64,000 nucleotides of DNA from the IMG/VR virus record IMGVR_UViG_3300025423_000001, positions 23,119 to 87,118 of that record; one strand, 5' to 3'. Under the pieces are notes generated by a model that made no database searches, was not told where the DNA came from, and saw only the letters and a program-made list of their open reading frames with translations. Every line of letters starts with the position of its first letter. The stretch's first letter is position 1. Below are positions 4,587-41,631 of the stretch, one piece after another. Origin of the DNA: a virus. The position numbers and the translations under genes were made by a program.

Positions 4587-6908
4587 TTAGATATGAGCCA
4601 AATGTTTCTTCTCGGCCAGGTCGTCATGAAGCTGACCAACCTTTTCCTTGTGTGCATCCACAGCCTCTTCAATCAGCTTGGCATACTCAGCATCTGTAAG
4701 CTGAGCATACTGGCTGGAATGATACAGGTTCTGTGTAACACCAGTAAGGGCTGAATGAGGGAAGAACTTCAATACGCGTAGTGCACCGGTACCTTTGTGG
4801 TCAATGCCGCCAATGAACATCGGGTCAACGAACACGTTCAGGGTGATAGTGCCTTCATTCTGGTAGTTCTTGATGTACCTTAAGCCACCAATATGCAGCC
4901 CTTTCACGCAGCTCTGGTCGTCATTGCAGTTAACTTTGTCCCAGCTGTCGAGATAAGTAGGCTGGCCAACACGGATGATGTGTCCTTCATATTCACCAGA
5001 GAAGAACTTGTCCCCGCTTTGGCGCTGCACAGCAGGTTCAAACACACGTTGTTCAAGGAATGTTGGCTTCTGGTAAGTCTTCAGCCCGCTGAATTCATCC
5101 ACCGTAAAGTCAAACCTGTCTACTTTCTTCACGCCACCATCTGCAGTGCCGTCTGGTACAAACTTCCAGTCAATTTCACTTACGACTTTGTAAGTAGCTA
5201 ATACAACTTGTTATCGCTGTGGCTTTTTATCCTCAGCTTCTTATACTTCTTAAGTTTGTATAAGTTCGGCGTACATTTTCAACCAGTTCACTCTGGCTGT
5301 CAAGCACTCTTGGAGATATTATAGTCTGCTATGCAGTTTCAATCTCTACGCTCTACGCAGTTCAGCCTCTTTTAACTTTCTGAATTTGCTCGGTATTAGT
5401 GCCCCTTGAAATATCTTATCGTGCTTACGTTGTAGGTAAAAATGAGCGTCTTTATAAAGGAATTTGTGTAAAAGCTTAAATGCTTCCATTTTTCTGACTA
5501 AAATCTTATAAAGTTTATCCTCTCTGGTTTCCCAAGAAGTTTCTATCTGATTATGATTAAGCACTTGTTCAAGCTGTTTTAGGAACACAATACTGTTTCC
5601 ACAGATACCAGCAACTCTATAACAACTTCCGTCTTTAGCTATACCTACAGAACACCATCCATCTCCATCAAATACTCCACGTATGTAGTGGCGCAAAAGT
5701 TCTGCTGGAATTGGAGGCATATTTATTTCACAATAGGACTTTCGATTACAAAGACCCAATGCTTGTAAAGCTTTTACGATTTCTTTACAGTTACAGCTAA
5801 AGATGAAGGACTTTGCAGTACCTTGAATCAATTCTAATTCTGGGCCAATATTATCTCTAAACAAGTTTAAGATATAGACATCATTACTGGTTACTTGAAT
5901 AGTTTTGTCATCTTTAGCTATTGAGCCGTCTGCTGTAAAAAATCCAAGCAGGTAAGCTTTTAACTCATTATCTATTACATCAAAGAAATCACGATATTTC
6001 AAAGAACTAGTATCTTTTAGCCGCCACGATTTTCTGTGAACTATAACAGGTAAGGAATATGCCTTAAAGTGGTGTATAAAGAACTTACGAGTTTTGCTAT
6101 ATTTTTCAGTCAATTGCTCGAGAGTCATCCCATTTAAGTGCTCTTCATACCACTCTGTTACTTGCTCTTCTATGGGGCTTAATTTGTACCGTGTCTTTAC
6201 TTTCAAGGAGCCTTTCATAGTTATAAGGATTAGAATACTAATGTATGTACCTAGTAGTCCTTGATTTTATACTGCTATGAAGCTTAAATACTTTCACCGA
6301 TTTTGCTTGATGCTTATTACAACATATTACTATGCTGCCGGGCTATACACTAACCCTTCCTGTGTGAAACTTACATCATACATGGTAGCACGCTGGATAG
6401 CCACTTCGGGGGCCAGCCCGTTCTCATTCACCAGCTTGGATGCCAACTCGTGGTTCACCACAGTTGTGTTGATATACTGGGCAAAGCGTTTGGCTTTGTC
6501 ATCAGTGTACCATGGATTACGCAGGAAGCGGGCCCAGCATTTTACCAGCGGCAACACATCAATCTTCTTTTCAACGGAAAGGATGATGCGTTCTACAAGC
6601 GACTTCGGTAACGGTTTGCTACTCACCTTACCGTTGATTGCCAGATACACCTTCCCGGTGTGTTTGTTTACCCACAGGAATTGACCACCCTGGGCATGCT
6701 CTACAATCTCCTTGTAGTTTTCCTTGGTAAACGGCTCAAACTCTTCGAGTATGGCCTTTAACTCTTCCATTGATGTAGCTGTGGATGCCTTCTGCTCCAA
6801 GTCTTTCATCAAGGCGTACTTCTGTTCGTCGTACTGGATGCCGTAGGGTATCCCGTTGTACGAGCCTGAGATGCTGTCGTTACCAACTCGGTTTACGATA
6901 ATCATCAT
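4587..6908 (-). CDS. rIIB: rIIB-like protein, gene interrupted by a group I intron
   Basis: Exon 1 (6908-6353) begins MMIIVNRVGNDSISGSYNG, matching the small N-terminal beta domain of rIIB-like proteins. Exon 2 (5203-4587) holds the C-terminal domain, with SCVKGLHIGG as the conserved Cys/Gly-Leu-His block. Joined after GGGT and at TATTAG, the frame continues through EGLLATYKVVSEIDW and gives about 390 residues. Read without splicing, exon 1 stops at TAG within the intron. The gene lies 110 bases after rIIA. In T4, rIIA and rIIB act at the membrane in lysis control and resistance to exclusion systems. A frame open further upstream to 6929 exists, but the family start fits 6908 or 6905. Confidence 0.8.
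5204..6352 (-). ncRNA. Group I intron in rIIB
   Basis: The 1149-base insert separates the two halves of rIIB. The predicted 5' site follows a U in GGGU, and the intron ends in G (5204), both standard for group I. An internal guide AUAGCCC (6346-6340) pairs with the joined exons GGGU-UAU through a single U.G wobble at the splice site, giving P1 and P10. A segment reading AGACTATAATATCTCC near 5328-5312 resembles a P7-type core strand. P3-P8 were not resolved by eye. It encodes a homing endonuclease. Confidence 0.75.
5346..6218 (-). CDS. LAGLIDADG homing endonuclease (intron-encoded)
   Basis: The 290-residue product has two LAGLIDADG helices: AYLLGFFTADGS at about 89-100 and HYIRGVFDGDGWC at about 177-189, each with the catalytic acidic residue. 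This is the single-chain, pseudo-dimeric form. The N-terminal 70 residues resemble a small HTH that may add DNA contacts. The gene lies wholly inside the rIIB intron. Its lower G+C and runs of A/T differ from neighbouring genes, as expected for a mobile element. It should cut intronless rIIB alleles near the exon junction. Confidence 0.9.
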   Translation of the reverse strand: MKGSLKVKTRYKLSPIEEQVTEWYEEHLNGMTLEQLTEKYSKTRKFFIHHFKAYSLPVIVHRKSWRLKDTSSLKYRDFFDVIDNELKAYLLGFFTADGSIAKDDKTIQVTSNDVYILNLFRDNIGPELELIQGTAKSFIFSCNCKEIVKALQALGLCNRKSYCEINMPPIPAELLRHYIRGVFDGDGWCSVGIAKDGSCYRVAGICGNSIVFLKQLEQVLNHNQIETSWETREDKLYKILVRKMEAFKLLHKFLYKDAHFYLQRKHDKIFQGALIPSKFRKLKEAELRRA

Positions 6909-21310: not shown

Positions 21311-23485
21311 TTAAGACCAACGGTCTGTAATTGTTGTATCTGTTTTAAGTATGCTTGAAGTGATTATCTCAGCTGCAGCTTCTTCCATTAGCCTTGATTG
21401 GATGGGTGCCCAGGTTTCTGCGTAGTCTTCCCTGGCTGCGGTATCAAGTGAGTCGTGGACTTCCATCTTTAACTGTACAAGATTGGACAATTTGTTGTCA
21501 TGGATATAGTTGTACACTTTAGTCATAGACAGCTTGAGAATATCTCCTGCACTGCCTTGGACTGGGGTGTTTTTACTTGCGCGTTCAATCTCCCCCAATC
21601 CGCCATGGAATTGAGCTCCTTGCAGGTGCGCATCAATAAATCGTATGTAGAATTTATGGTTAGGGAACCAACGTCTACGGTAGTACGGCTTGATAGTTTG
21701 GATGTAGCCTTTCTCGCAGCCAAACCTTCCAAAATAATCCAGCACAGCTTTCAGCTTGGGTAAGGCTGTGAAGTAGTCGTTGATTATCTGCATAGCCTCT
21801 GGTACCGGTATACGGAGAGTAGATGCCAGCTTAAAATGGCCACCGCCGTAGATAAGCATGAAGTTCACAGTCTTAGTGGCCGTTCTCATATACTTATGGC
21901 GTTTACAGGAGCATTTGTGCTTGGAAATCTTACCATCCTTGTCTGTCTTGTAATAGGCACAATCACGTTCAGCAGCATCCTTCCATTTCTTTTGAAACAC
22001 TACCTCGGCTACAGAGCTGTGCAAGTCCTGGCCCTTCTCCAATGCCTCAAGCCAAATAGGCTCTTTGGACAGGAAGGCTACAATTACCAATTCTTCACTC
22101 ACAAAGTCTGTGCTTACCCATTTCCATCCTGCTGGCAGAATGAAAGCATTCTTGTACTTGGTACCCACGGCTTCCTTCTTTGGCAGTTGTTGAAGATTGG
22201 GAGAACTACTACTTGTCCGCCCGGTACTCAGCACTTGCCTGAAGCGTGTGCGCACCTTACCATCCGGCTCCACATATTTGGCCAACCAAGCTTCACCAAA
22301 GGCTGTGATAAGTTTATCTGTATCCTTGTACTCTTCATAGTCAGCCACTATTGGATGGCTCGTCCTGCCAAGGCTTTCAGCTGACAAGTCTGTCACCTTT
22401 TCCACACACTGGATGATGGGGAGCACCTGAGCCACACTGCCCCAGTTGATGGTGGGAGTACCAGCCGGCACAAGCTGTTGGTTGGCTATTAGGTATTCCC
22501 GGTGGTTATCCATCAAGTCTTTTGTCACCTCTGACGTGTCCCCATCCAGGTAATACGGCAGCCAATGCGGCACCGGCTCCTGGGCTTTAAGCTTGTTACT
22601 CTGCCAGCGTTGAAGCACGGCTTTGGACGTACCGGGCAAGTCTGGGTAGATGTCAGCAAACATTTGTGACTTCTGCTTGGGGGATGCCCAATTGAGCAAC
22701 AGCCTGTCCTTGGTATGGATGTACCCCAGCTCTAAGGCTTTAGTGTAGAATGGCTCCTGATTGAGCCAATCATTTAGCTTAGTTTGTGCCGCGGCCACTA
22801 AGGGTTCAACCTCAGCTTGCAGGCTCTTCCACCACGGCTGGTCAATTTCCATTCCATGGTACACCATCTCGGCAAAGGCTGGCACACAGTTGTTCTCCAG
22901 CTCTACTACCTTGTCAAAAGTGCCGTATTCCAATCTCACAGCCTGCTCACGGATGGCTTTACGTATGTTGGCCAAGTGTTTCACGTCTTGTGCAGCATAC
23001 ACCACCTTCTCAGGCGTGAGTATGTTGTCACCGAACGCTGTCTGCTGGCTCTTGTCAAGTACAATTTGCAGGTAGCGAAAACATACATCGTCAAGGCCAT
23101 AGCCTACTTCATGCTCGCCTCCCTGCAACACCATCTCTGCCAACATAGTGTCATACACATTCTGAATACGTATACCGTGAAATAGCATTACCACACATTC
23201 AAACTGGGCATTGTGGATGAGCTTGGTCAAGCGTTTGGCTTCGAGAGCCTGTTTGATAAGCACCTTCTGGCTGTCATTTAGCCCACTCCATTGAAGTACC
23301 CATTCCGTCCCTTGCCAACCAAACTGTACAGTAATGACTTGCTTGTCACACCACCAGTCGGATGGATTGGTTTCGATGTCGAATTCTACCTCCAGCAGCT
23401 TCACTACCCAATCCACAAAGTCTTTCCAGTTGCCAGGATTATAGCCCGGCTTCCATTCTGTGGGGTTGCCTATCACGTACGTCAT
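21311..23485 (-). CDS. Family A DNA polymerase with 3'-5' exonuclease domain
   Basis: ATG 23485 (MTYVIGNPTEW) gives 724 residues, close to T7 gp5. The N-terminal DEDD exonuclease has FDIETN (35-40), NAQFE and YAAQDVKHL. The polymerase domain has STGRTSSSSPNLQQLP, motif A STDFVSEEL, motif B RTATKTVNFMLIYGGG, and motif C EVHDSLD at about 675-681. The motif C residue after HD is Ser where most enzymes have Glu. A Cys/His-rich insertion (HKCSCKRHKY) precedes motif B. It lacks a 5' nuclease domain, which the FEN gene supplies. This should be the replicative polymerase. Confidence 0.92.
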   Translation of the reverse strand: MTYVIGNPTEWKPGYNPGNWKDFVDWVVKLLEVEFDIETNPSDWWCDKQVITVQFGWQGTEWVLQWSGLNDSQKVLIKQALEAKRLTKLIHNAQFECVVMLFHGIRIQNVYDTMLAEMVLQGGEHEVGYGLDDVCFRYLQIVLDKSQQTAFGDNILTPEKVVYAAQDVKHLANIRKAIREQAVRLEYGTFDKVVELENNCVPAFAEMVYHGMEIDQPWWKSLQAEVEPLVAAAQTKLNDWLNQEPFYTKALELGYIHTKDRLLLNWASPKQKSQMFADIYPDLPGTSKAVLQRWQSNKLKAQEPVPHWLPYYLDGDTSEVTKDLMDNHREYLIANQQLVPAGTPTINWGSVAQVLPIIQCVEKVTDLSAESLGRTSHPIVADYEEYKDTDKLITAFGEAWLAKYVEPDGKVRTRFRQVLSTGRTSSSSPNLQQLPKKEAVGTKYKNAFILPAGWKWVSTDFVSEELVIVAFLSKEPIWLEALEKGQDLHSSVAEVVFQKKWKDAAERDCAYYKTDKDGKISKHKCSCKRHKYMRTATKTVNFMLIYGGGHFKLASTLRIPVPEAMQIINDYFTALPKLKAVLDYFGRFGCEKGYIQTIKPYYRRRWFPNHKFYIRFIDAHLQGAQFHGGLGEIERASKNTPVQGSAGDILKLSMTKVYNYIHDNKLSNLVQLKMEVHDSLDTAAREDYAETWAPIQSRLMEEAAAEIITSSILKTDTTITDRWS

Positions 23486-23924
23486 ACTCTTCGTGTTCAA
23501 TCATGAATAATTCAGGCTCAGGTACACTGTCGTACCGCCTGTCCTCGTCTTCTTGGTAGCCCAGCCTGGCCACGACATACACATAGAACCCAAACTCGTC
23601 TATGTACCCCTCATCGTCAATCCTCACACGCTGCCTATCTTCAAGCTGTGAGCGCCTCTGCCCTGCGGCTATGGCCCGCTCGTCTGTCTCTGACAGTATA
23701 GGGCTGTGGGATACAATGGTGTAGATGTGTATGTCAGGGTCGGCTGCAAGCTGTTGCTTTAGTTTCTCCGGGTCTGGTACGGCCTTACGTGTGTAGGCTG
23801 CATACCGTACGTTGGACAGCTTACCGTGCATCGGCGTGTACCAGTTCGGCCCTACCAGCGGTGGGGGATTTCTTACCTCCCGGAGGATTACCTTTTCCCT
23901 GTCGGCTGTCATCACTGTTACCAT
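23439..23924 (-). CDS. Hypothetical acidic protein upstream of DNA polymerase
   Basis: The 161-residue product is rich in Arg, Glu and Asp, especially in its second half (YQEDEDRRYDS). No domain is recognised. It overlaps the polymerase start by 47 bases and is itself overlapped by the gene upstream by 104 bases, suggesting coupled translation. A polymerase accessory role is possible but unsupported. Confidence 0.65.
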   Translation of the reverse strand: MVTVMTADREKVILREVRNPPPLVGPNWYTPMHGKLSNVRYAAYTRKAVPDPEKLKQQLAADPDIHIYTIVSHSPILSETDERAIAAGQRRSQLEDRQRVRIDDEGYIDEFGFYVYVVARLGYQEDEDRRYDSVPEPELFMIEHEEYDVRDRQPHRMEAGL

Positions 23925-25290: not shown

Positions 25291-25369
25291 GGTACGTGTT
25301 TAAAGTGTGAATAAAGAGCCCGGTGTAGAAACACCAGGCGAGAAAAACCAAATCAACTGCTTGTGAGAG

Positions 25370-25712
25370 TGGAGGTGGGGGGAGTCGAACCCCCGTCTTT
25401 CCTGCAAAGCCTAATACCGTTCTTACATGCTTAGTACTGCATCACTGCTGCACCGTAATTGGGGCCACACGATTGTGACCGCTCCACCACCAGCTTTTGA
25501 GTGAAACTGGAAACACTGGTTTGTGCCCTGTTGAAGTGCCGGGCTGGCAAGTGATTAGGCTGCGATAGCCTTGTCAGCAGCGAATGCCATACGGATGATG
25601 GCAGCGCCTTCTTGTTGACGTTTGTCGGTTGTTGTTTAGGAGTGGTTTGGCTCTCCCAAGCCTTGCATGTGATACTATTCTGTTACCTGAAATCAAATCC
25701 AAATACACCCCC
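25370..25712 (-). ncRNA. ssrA: Transfer-messenger RNA (tmRNA)
   Basis: The 343-base RNA has a tRNA-like end. The 5' GGGGGTG (25712-25706) pairs with 3' CACCTCC (25377-25371). The T arm is GGGGG-TTCGACT-CCCCC, the tmRNA-type D region reads GGATTTGATT, and ACATGC pairs with GCATGT in the P2 helix. An internal frame ends MAFAADKAIAA followed by TAA at 25557-25555, a plausible proteolysis tag ending in Ala-Ala. Exact resume codon is uncertain. tmRNA with host SmpB rescues stalled ribosomes and tags the product for ClpXP. CCA is not encoded. Confidence 0.85.
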
Positions 25713-38847: not shown

Positions 38848-39530
38848 GACTATTCTTACTTGACTCTAACTACCAGGTAGAGCTGAACAAGGAATGGATA
38901 ATGCTCATTCCTGAATTCGCAGCCTTACTCAAGAGGGACAAAGGCAGCAAGGGAGACTACCGTGGTGACCTTAAACTCAAAACGCGCAAAGAGCTAACAT
39001 TCATATACTTTGACTTAGACTTCACCTCCCCCATACGTGAGTGGCCGGACTTCGAGCGTAGGGAAGAGGCTATGCGGTTTGCCGGACTCTCCGAAGCTGA
39101 CCTTGACGGGCCTGTGATGGAAGCCCACGTCATGTACAACAAGCTACTCCTCCAATCATCCCGAAGCCTAAAGACGTTACGCTCGATAGAGAAATCCCTG
39201 GACGCCATGGACACTTACTTCGAGGACATAGACTTCTCAAAAGAAGACAAGAAAGGCGAACTGGTACATGACCCAGCCAAGTACATACTCAATCTTCAAC
39301 GTATAGGTGCCGCCTATGATAGCGTAGACAAGTTCCGCAAGCGTGTACAAGAAGAACTGAAAGGGGAAGCCAGCATTCGTGGTACAGCCACCCTTGGCCG
39401 GAAAGAGACTGCTGGTATGGGTGAATGGAAAGAACAGACTGAAGCTCCAGTTGCTACAGCCATCAACTTCAGTAAGATAGGCAGCCTGCTCAGAGGGGCT
39501 GTAGAGGAGGAAGAAGATGGGATGGCATAA
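38844..39530 (+). CDS. Conserved protein upstream of TerL, possible small terminase
   Basis: The 228-residue product starts MRLFLLDSNYQVELNKEWIM, has a helical middle (NKLLLQSSRSLKTLRSIEKS) and an acidic end EEEEDGMA. It overlaps the TerL start by 14 bases. The place directly before TerL is where a small terminase subunit often sits, but no HTH is evident and similar genes in crAss-like phages are unassigned. Confidence 0.65.
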   Translation: MRLFLLDSNYQVELNKEWIMLIPEFAALLKRDKGSKGDYRGDLKLKTRKELTFIYFDLDFTSPIREWPDFERREEAMRFAGLSEADLDGPVMEAHVMYNKLLLQSSRSLKTLRSIEKSLDAMDTYFEDIDFSKEDKKGELVHDPAKYILNLQRIGAAYDSVDKFRKRVQEELKGEASIRGTATLGRKETAGMGEWKEQTEAPVATAINFSKIGSLLRGAVEEEEDGMA

Positions 39531-41631
39531 CCTCAGTAACACAGCACAATTCTCCTACACAGCCAGAGACTTTATCAAGAATGGTGGCCGGTATTGCCTT
39601 GCCCCAATTGGCAGCCGTGAATGGAACGAGTTTTGGGACATAGAGGCTAAACGCTGTCGTGAAGGCTACAAGATAGGTGACACATGGATAACAGGCAGGC
39701 ACTACCACTACCTGAACTTCACACCCATCTGGAAAGTGCCGGACGATGTGGGCATCAAAGCATTCAACGAGGCCAAGAATGGCAAGGCTAAGATAGGCAA
39801 GCTGACCGCTGAAAAGGTGTTCAGCTTTCCGCGTTTCTACGAGACAGGCTACGAATGGTACAGGTTTAAGCACATAGCCTGGTATGGGGGTGAGTTCATG
39901 GGTATCAACTCGCCCGGGGCCAAGCACATAGGCTGCGCCAAAGCAAGAGGTGCTGGCTGGAGCTACATGGAAGCCCAAGATGGTGTGTACAACTACACAT
40001 TCGTAGACGGTAGTAAGAACTACTACTACGCTGGCATCGAACAATATCTTACTGTGGATGGTATCCTCAACAAGGTACAGCCCATGCTTGACTGGATAAA
40101 TGACCACTGCCCTGATTGGAAGAAGAACAGGCAGAAGAAGAACACACTCATGCACATGCGGGCTAGCTATATTGACGCATTCGGGACTGAGCGTGGAAGC
40201 ATGAGCGAGATAATCGGCGTGGTAGTAGACGACCCAGAGAAGACAAGGGGTAAGCGCGGGCGCAAGATAACCTTTGAGGAAGGAGGCTCATTTCGCAACA
40301 TCAAGAAGGCTTACAACGTGGCACAAGGCTCTATGAAAGATGGTGACATCTACGTCGGGCAGATGACTGTGCTCGGTACCGGTGGCGAGGAAGGCCCTGA
40401 CATCGAAGGGTTGGAGGATATGTTTTATGACCCAGAAAGCTTTGACATGCTGGCATTCCCCAACGTGTGGGAACCTGGCTTTGAGAATACAACCTGCGGC
40501 TACTTCTGCCCTGTGTGGCGTACCAAGTCCACCTTCATGGATGAAAACGGAAACGTTGACATAGCCATGGCCATTGAGAGTGAGAAAAAGATTAGGCTGC
40601 AGAAGAAGAAGGCCAAAGACCCGAATGTGTTGGATGGACATAAGGCTGAGTACCCAATCGTACCATCTGAAGCTTTCAAGCGTCTCAAGCGCAACTCTTT
40701 CAACGTGGCAGAAGTGGAAGCCCAAATACGGCGCATAGAAACCCAACAGGCCATACAAGGTATGCTCCGGCACGGGCAACTCACCCGGGATGAAAAGCTG
40801 GGCGTAGTGTTTATTCCTCAGCCTAAAGACGTGGCCAAGCCAGTGGAAGAATACCCACATAACCAGAAAGGAGACCTTGAAGGCTGCGTGACAATAGTAG
40901 CCTCCCCGTTCCGTGACCAGCGTGGTAGCGTACCGGATGGTATGTACCAAATTGTAGTTGACCCATACTATAAGGAAGAGAGCGAAGACCTCACGTCCTT
41001 GTTCGTGGTACAGGTATGGAAGCAATTCAACCAGCTAAGCCCTGTGGATGAAGAGCTACCAGTAGCATGGTACGTTGGCCGGCCACAAAGTTTAGATACA
41101 GCCTACGCCAATCTATTCATGCTGTCTGACTTGTACAATTGCTCCATCCAATCGGAGATAGCCGGTGGTGGGCAGGGGATAGTAGACTATGCCAAGACTA
41201 ACAAGCTACTGCACAAGCTGGAACGTGAACCAGAGATGATGGGCAACAATAAGGAGTACACCACTACATCGGCACAGAGAAACCGTGCCATTTTCATGAA
41301 CATGAGTACGGAGAAAGCAAGGTTGGGTATCACCTATCTCGTCAACTGGCACACTAAGGTGAGAGGGTACACAGAAGACGGCAAACCCATACTCAACATA
41401 CACCGGTGCTATGACATAGGTATGCTTCGGGAAATGAAGAAGTACAATCCTGAGAAGAACGCTGACAGATTATCAGCTGCCAGGATAGCTATGTTCATGC
41501 TTAAAGAAAACGCCTACCGCGAAGAAAGCCGTGTACAGCAAGACGATGAAGGCTTTTACAGCAGGCCATTATTCACCAGTGAGGGTAGGTATGCTCCACA
41601 GGCACAAGGTATGACGTCTCCATACGGTTAG
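39517..41631 (+). CDS. terL: Terminase large subunit
   Basis: The 704-residue product has an ATPase domain with a degenerate Walker A AKARGAGWSY (141-150) and Walker B KITFEEGG (250-257), then a C-terminal RNase H-like nuclease with YQIVVDPYYKEE. Length and layout fit TerL of crAss-like phages, which cut concatemers and pump DNA through the portal. The portal gene follows after 14 bases. The Lys/Thr of a standard P-loop is replaced, so an Arg nearby may substitute. Confidence 0.85.
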   Translation: MGWHNLSNTAQFSYTARDFIKNGGRYCLAPIGSREWNEFWDIEAKRCREGYKIGDTWITGRHYHYLNFTPIWKVPDDVGIKAFNEAKNGKAKIGKLTAEKVFSFPRFYETGYEWYRFKHIAWYGGEFMGINSPGAKHIGCAKARGAGWSYMEAQDGVYNYTFVDGSKNYYYAGIEQYLTVDGILNKVQPMLDWINDHCPDWKKNRQKKNTLMHMRASYIDAFGTERGSMSEIIGVVVDDPEKTRGKRGRKITFEEGGSFRNIKKAYNVAQGSMKDGDIYVGQMTVLGTGGEEGPDIEGLEDMFYDPESFDMLAFPNVWEPGFENTTCGYFCPVWRTKSTFMDENGNVDIAMAIESEKKIRLQKKKAKDPNVLDGHKAEYPIVPSEAFKRLKRNSFNVAEVEAQIRRIETQQAIQGMLRHGQLTRDEKLGVVFIPQPKDVAKPVEEYPHNQKGDLEGCVTIVASPFRDQRGSVPDGMYQIVVDPYYKEESEDLTSLFVVQVWKQFNQLSPVDEELPVAWYVGRPQSLDTAYANLFMLSDLYNCSIQSEIAGGGQGIVDYAKTNKLLHKLEREPEMMGNNKEYTTTSAQRNRAIFMNMSTEKARLGITYLVNWHTKVRGYTEDGKPILNIHRCYDIGMLREMKKYNPEKNADRLSAARIAMFMLKENAYREESRVQQDDEGFYSRPLFTSEGRYAPQAQGMTSPYG

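Follow-up and report, generated by a model that had tools for sequence, protein, structure and literature searches.

A crAss-like phage of lake type carries a one-piece tmRNA gene whose tag peptide belongs to a family that is selected, common to distant phages and absent from the sampled hosts, which suggests that phages choose the fate of unfinished proteins during infection. The gene lies in the window, the whole 64,000-nucleotide stretch of DNA that was analysed, which comes from an IMG/VR record of 87,118 bases. A phage-only tag family of this kind, under selection and common to several crAss-like phages, appears to be new: no report of one was found in the open-access literature searched, and the papers found there pay little attention to the tags of phage tmRNAs.

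ARAGORN called a single tmRNA in the window, at 25369-25712 on the minus strand, and Rfam model RF00023 matched 25367-25712 of that strand with a score of 72.3 bits (E = 3.7e-26), above the gathering score of 47 bits and with the full model covered (positions 1-374). The first-pass annotation had proposed a phage-encoded tmRNA on this strand at 25370-25712, with a tag ending in MAFAADKAIAA before TAA. Both programs bear out the gene, and the ARAGORN call agrees with its extent and with the end of the tag. A tmRNA with the tag DTRQTEGAAIIRMAFASEKAVAA stands in the equivalent position in a related phage (G001, IMG/VR 3300002307_000002), and the match in the window is therefore not due to chance. 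The G001 gene (L003:4484-4945) is about 117 bases longer than that of the window, most of the extra sequence falling before the 3' strand of P2. In another relative (G004, capsid 65%) a tmRNA was looked for and not found. The features of the window gene and two landmark genes are as follows.

25369 to 25712, minus strand: one-piece tmRNA gene (ssrA), found by ARAGORN and Rfam RF00023
25706 to 25712, minus strand: acceptor stem, 5' strand GGGGGTG, pairing with CACCTCC at 25371-25377 (seven of seven pairs in 14 relatives)
25371 to 25377, minus strand: acceptor stem, 3' strand CACCTCC, with A73 at 25370
25378 to 25394, minus strand: T arm, GGGGG TTCGACT CCCCC, paired in all 14 relatives
25665 to 25675, minus strand: P2, 5' strand GTATCACATGC, a sequence that marks the phage tmRNA clade, with its 3' strand at about 25414-25430
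25637 to 25662, minus strand: pseudoknot PK1, upstream of the tag, with stems that re-form in relatives
25630, minus strand: A four bases ahead of the resume codon (-4), the frame-setting equivalent of E. coli A86
25555 to 25626, minus strand: tag reading frame from GAC to TAA (ARAGORN), encoding DKRQQEGAAIIRMAFAADKAIAA and a stop, with synonymous changes across relatives
21311 to 23500, minus strand: family A DNA polymerase (phrog_17, E = 1.8e-86), downstream of the tmRNA on the same strand
39517 to 41631, plus strand: crAss-like large terminase (phrog_6681, E = 1.3e-100)

The acceptor pair G3-U70, the alanine identity determinant, is invariant in the window and in 14 relatives. Across the same relatives acceptor pairs 5 and 6 covary, and three of the five T-stem pairs are altered on both sides with pairing kept; both stems of PK1 are restored with other letters in relatives. 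In E. coli the tag frame begins four bases after A86, and the change U85C is tolerated (PMC2481249). The resume codon of the window tag was placed at GAC (25626-25624) because the conserved A stands at -4, which fits this rule (PMC2481249), and the same A is conserved in the clade before GAC, GCA, GTA and GGC resume codons. The terminal CCA is not encoded in its entirety, so that its completion would fall to the host. It is very unlikely that this RNA is a decoy or a relic that titrates SmpB or host tmRNA while its tag goes untranslated. The phage tmRNAs are divergent from host ones, scoring 58-89 bits against the Rfam model versus 126-162 bits in Flavobacteriaceae, and a phage form reduced to the TLD is known in DS6A (PMC4131195), but the full structure, the covarying stems and an open frame under peptide-level selection all speak against such a role.

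The tag of the window has 23 codons. The Bacteroidota tags among the matches listed are short, at about nine amino acids (for instance GENNYALAA, GNTSYAMAA and GNTQYAMAA), and 28 of 30 further Flavobacteriaceae tags end in NYALAA or NYAMAA. The tag had initially been described as unlike those of Bacteroidota, with emphasis on its end; this stands, with the refinement that -AIAA is not itself the odd part, given that GNTSYAIAA occurs as a chromosomal tag of Bacteroidota (L033). Judged by its letters, -AIAA is only a mild departure from host ends and is degron-like, and the unusual features of the tag are its length and its long inner segment. The end is a hydrophobic-Ala-Ala variant of the ssrA degron, from which the exact LAA is absent. 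Nearly all tags of the clade finish in this manner, mostly in AVAA or ALAA, also in AIAA, and in YALAA in two cases (L253, L259). Retention of such an end argues for continued degradation of tagged proteins, and points to proteolysis as the probable outcome for rescued products.

A universal tmRNA pattern retrieved at least 116 bacterial loci and at least 117 new viral loci. Many of the viral tags among the matches listed are 20-31 amino acids long. The median length of distinct tags called by ARAGORN, again among the matches listed, is 17 in viral contigs versus 10 in bacteria (p = 4e-7), a rough statistic because the program overlooks a number of phage tmRNAs, and its tags for some bacterial tmRNAs are doubtful.

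The crAss-like large terminase, the portal (phrog_6547) and the major head protein (phrog_11589) place the window phage among the Crassvirales-like phages; it also encodes an RIIA-like protein. Its terminase is about 30% identical to those of Crassvirales and Flavobacterium phages, and in the terminase tree it falls near the Flavobacterium phage FpV4 (support 92/92, long branches). As in the window, the tmRNA stands upstream of the polymerase in a contig that is nearly identical (L002, L006) and also in G001, the polymerase and capsid of which are 71% and 93% identical to those of the window. A group I intron (Rfam, 84.7 bits) occurs near the G001 polymerase (L003:12336-12615), and a LAGLIDADG-type endonuclease domain (Pfam PF14528) is found among the early genes of the window (5346-6218, minus strand). 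Shine-Dalgarno motifs occur at 0.18 in the window phage against a background of 0.17, and at 0.00 in FpV4. The terminase kinship and the missing Shine-Dalgarno excess fit a host among the Bacteroidota, which we infer to be the case.

The P2 signature GTATCACATGC is common to 36 loci, all of them viral among the matches listed, many of these loci having come from a search with a pattern derived from the signature itself. It occurs in none of the 116 bacterial tmRNA loci among the matches listed. A longer pattern built on it had one match in 396 Bacteroidota genomes, in letters that are not a tmRNA, and the exact PK1 pattern had no match across 84,980 species genomes. These two absences imply that the gene is not a recent copy from a host. 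The idea of a captured host tmRNA with a drifted tag is thus largely contradicted and exceedingly improbable, notwithstanding the one-piece type that the gene has in common with the tmRNAs of Bacteroidota: neither the P2 nor the PK1 sequence could be traced to a tmRNA in the collections just named. A BLAST search of annotated phages with the tmRNAs of the window and two relatives returned no full-length relative.

The inner segment of the tag has a recognisable core, G-A-x-I-I-x-M-A-F, which is present in 13 distinct tags within the phage-only clade and also in other tmRNA bodies. Besides the tag of the window, the family includes AKSKSERVAEGASIIAMAFASEVALAA (L263), VKSQSERVEEGASIIAMAFASELALAA (L252), DNRQSEGAAIINMAFANVRVAVAA (L245) and ATRQEVGASIINGAFAAVRMAEAA (L157). 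The window tag aligns with the tags of L245, L139, L157, L263 and L249 at a shuffle p of 0.0005 or less. Related tags added for the selection test were AKTTSERVAEGEAILASLFADVAIAA (L219), DKTQSSRVAEGDAILASIFGEVAIAA (L163) and ANKTANFDFANNVINMAFANAPVALAA (L208). Across 15 tags pN/pS is 0.39 in the tag frame, compared with 1.10 and 1.31 in the other two frames. Third-position entropy is 1.20 versus 0.62 and 0.50, with a permutation p of 0.0002 that is too optimistic because related sequences were pooled. As judged from these substitution patterns, the GAxIIxMAF family is under selection at the protein level. The initial suggestion of a phage-specific tag is supported, and the tag is conserved as well. 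In the pair L219 and L150 the tag DNA is 82% identical and the flanks are 54-56% identical, the L219 tag being carried by a different RNA body from that of L150. The window and G001 do not differ in the DNA letters of the central part of the tag, so that part of the conservation may reflect recent descent or constraint on the RNA. A tblastn search of annotated phages with the tag, a weak query of 27 amino acids, gave no match.

Phages with the tag family have crAss-like terminases that fall into three separate lineages, comprising the window and G001, G009 and G010, and G011 to G021. Since G014 carries a tag of another family (VELSTMDFEGLMAFVGGELEIAA) beside its close relative G011, the inner segment must be replaceable, and phages seem to trade tmRNAs, or the tags of these, with one another. 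Other viral tags form families of their own: VELSxYTxxSLLAELxGxELELA (L140, L165, L182, L207, L231), GETFAKLQAVGLLRTEEVTVA (L142, L204, L240), AKAITNAVKSVKSFVTNMAESLFACEDELCLMAA (L191, L196, L210) and EADAILAKYGYADSELLAA (L184, L194, L202). An Omnitrophota MAG contig (L117) has a tmRNA whose long tag, ANNSYDVVAEAEAILAGAEAPALV, is phage-like in appearance. Among named phages, Leptolyngbya phage Lbo-JY46 has the terminase closest to those of the G011 group; it is not closely related to the window, and no tmRNA matched there over the full length (score only 14.5 bits). Lbo-JY46 (L274) is crAss-like by its terminase, which is 40% identical to that of G011, and has 14 sites of the Bacteroidota promoter type TTTG-N17-23-TAnnTTTG, against 2.9 in simple shuffles; the cyanobacterial host given for it may be worth checking.

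The same observations bear on whether the inner segment does anything. It may be that the gene is a plain rescue tmRNA with an ordinary degron, the inner segment being functionless and kept by common descent and by transfer from phage to phage. The degron-like end and the replacement of tag families between close phages agree with this account, and we regard it as a serious possibility, if not a probable one; the low pN/pS over the core, and the recurrence of one inner peptide in unlike RNA bodies whose flanks have diverged, count against it.

We consider it likely instead that the window tmRNA rescues stalled ribosomes during infection, with -AIAA serving as a degron and the inner segment as an additional point of contact with a protease or adaptor. 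The gene, its structure, its frame, the phage-specific clade and the selection on the peptide stand on the observations above, whereas we infer that the RNA is expressed and charged, that it works with host SmpB, that its products are degraded, and what the inner segment does. The phage tmRNA would use the alanyl-tRNA synthetase, EF-Tu and SmpB of the host; no SmpB gene was found in 15 phage records, so the phage would have to rely on that of its host. The RNA would enter ribosomes stalled on broken messages, and translation would resume at GAC, adding alanine and DKRQQEGAAIIRMAFAADKAIAA before the stop. The C-terminal -AIAA is most likely still a protease degron, and GAxIIxMAF most likely a second site of contact with protease or adaptor, which would tune the speed of removal of rescued proteins or the choice of protease. 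The phage would in this way keep ribosome rescue running on its own terms.

A stronger version takes up the suggestion of the first-pass annotation that the tag could retarget rescued proteins or evade host control: the tag would direct them to a protease, adaptor or cell site chosen by the phage, bypassing the usual ssrA-tag route of the host. A conserved, phage-specific inner segment and phage tags that exceed bacterial ones in length, among the matches listed, are in keeping with such retargeting. We nevertheless judge it unlikely: the C-terminal degron is retained, some members end in YALAA like host tags, and a Pfam scan of 20 window proteins turned up no adaptor or protease gene. Somewhat less unlikely is that crAss-like phages share a mobile, phage-specific tag whose conserved inner peptide would be an address in its own right, sending the proteins rescued in infected cells to a chosen protease or partner, the address families differing by phage group.

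The question of the tag can now be tested, for cultured flavobacterial phages have tmRNAs with long tags, and phage tags are candidate degrons for use in Bacteroidota. Flavobacterium psychrophilum phage FpV4 has a tmRNA that is unannotated in its GenBank record (L287:1048-1462; KT876724.1:81947-82361). The FpV4 group comprises 29 records with a tmRNA, 28 sister records matching that of FpV4 over its full length. The FpV4 tag, GNTNNSVVSLEDNAQVEANMNMAFSLIREDVAVAA, has 35 amino acids and ends in VAVAA (core match, p = 0.005). In Cellulophaga phage Calle_1 the tmRNA is annotated (PMC8776804), and its long tag has the inner segment GNNTNAVNAQIEANMEAVNAILNLEVAVGV. The tags of Calle_1 (p = 0.36) and phi14:2 (p = 0.42) were considered as members of the GAxIIxMAF family and rejected, the core being unmatched; in phi14:2, a member of the Crassvirales, ARAGORN called a tmRNA where Rfam gave no match above the cut-off.

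A tmRNA has been recorded in 402 of 18,146 phage genomes (PMC9004378), and the window gene resembles several known systems in part. It shares with the one-piece tmRNAs of Bacteroidota the G3-U70 acceptor, T arm, P2, PK1, the upstream-A resume signal and a hydrophobic-Ala-Ala tag end, but differs from them in its P2 and PK1 sequences, in a Rfam score about half of theirs, and in a tag of 23 rather than about nine amino acids, the inner segment of which hosts lack. Calle_1, phi38:1 and the FpV4 group, all cultured phages of Bacteroidota, likewise carry a one-piece tmRNA whose tag is long. The FpV4 tag has MAF and the VAVAA end in common with the window family, whereas the RNA bodies and inner segments of Calle_1 and FpV4 are other than those of the window. 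The mycobacteriophage tmRNAs (Bxz1 group and Wildcat; PMC4131195, PMC7474061) are also phage-encoded, in phages of actinobacterial hosts, and that of Wildcat is highly expressed in lytic growth (PMC4131195, PMC7474061). The methylophage Melnitz (PMC9004378) similarly is an aquatic lytic phage with a tmRNA unlike that of its host, but its tmRNA is two-piece, circularly permuted and of the alphaproteobacterial type, whereas ours is one-piece. A precedent for a longer tag that is read by another protease comes from Mesoplasma florum (PMC9382460): its ssrA tag is longer than usual, like that of the window, but is cellular, ends in NYAFA and, since the organism has no ClpXP, is recognised by Lon.
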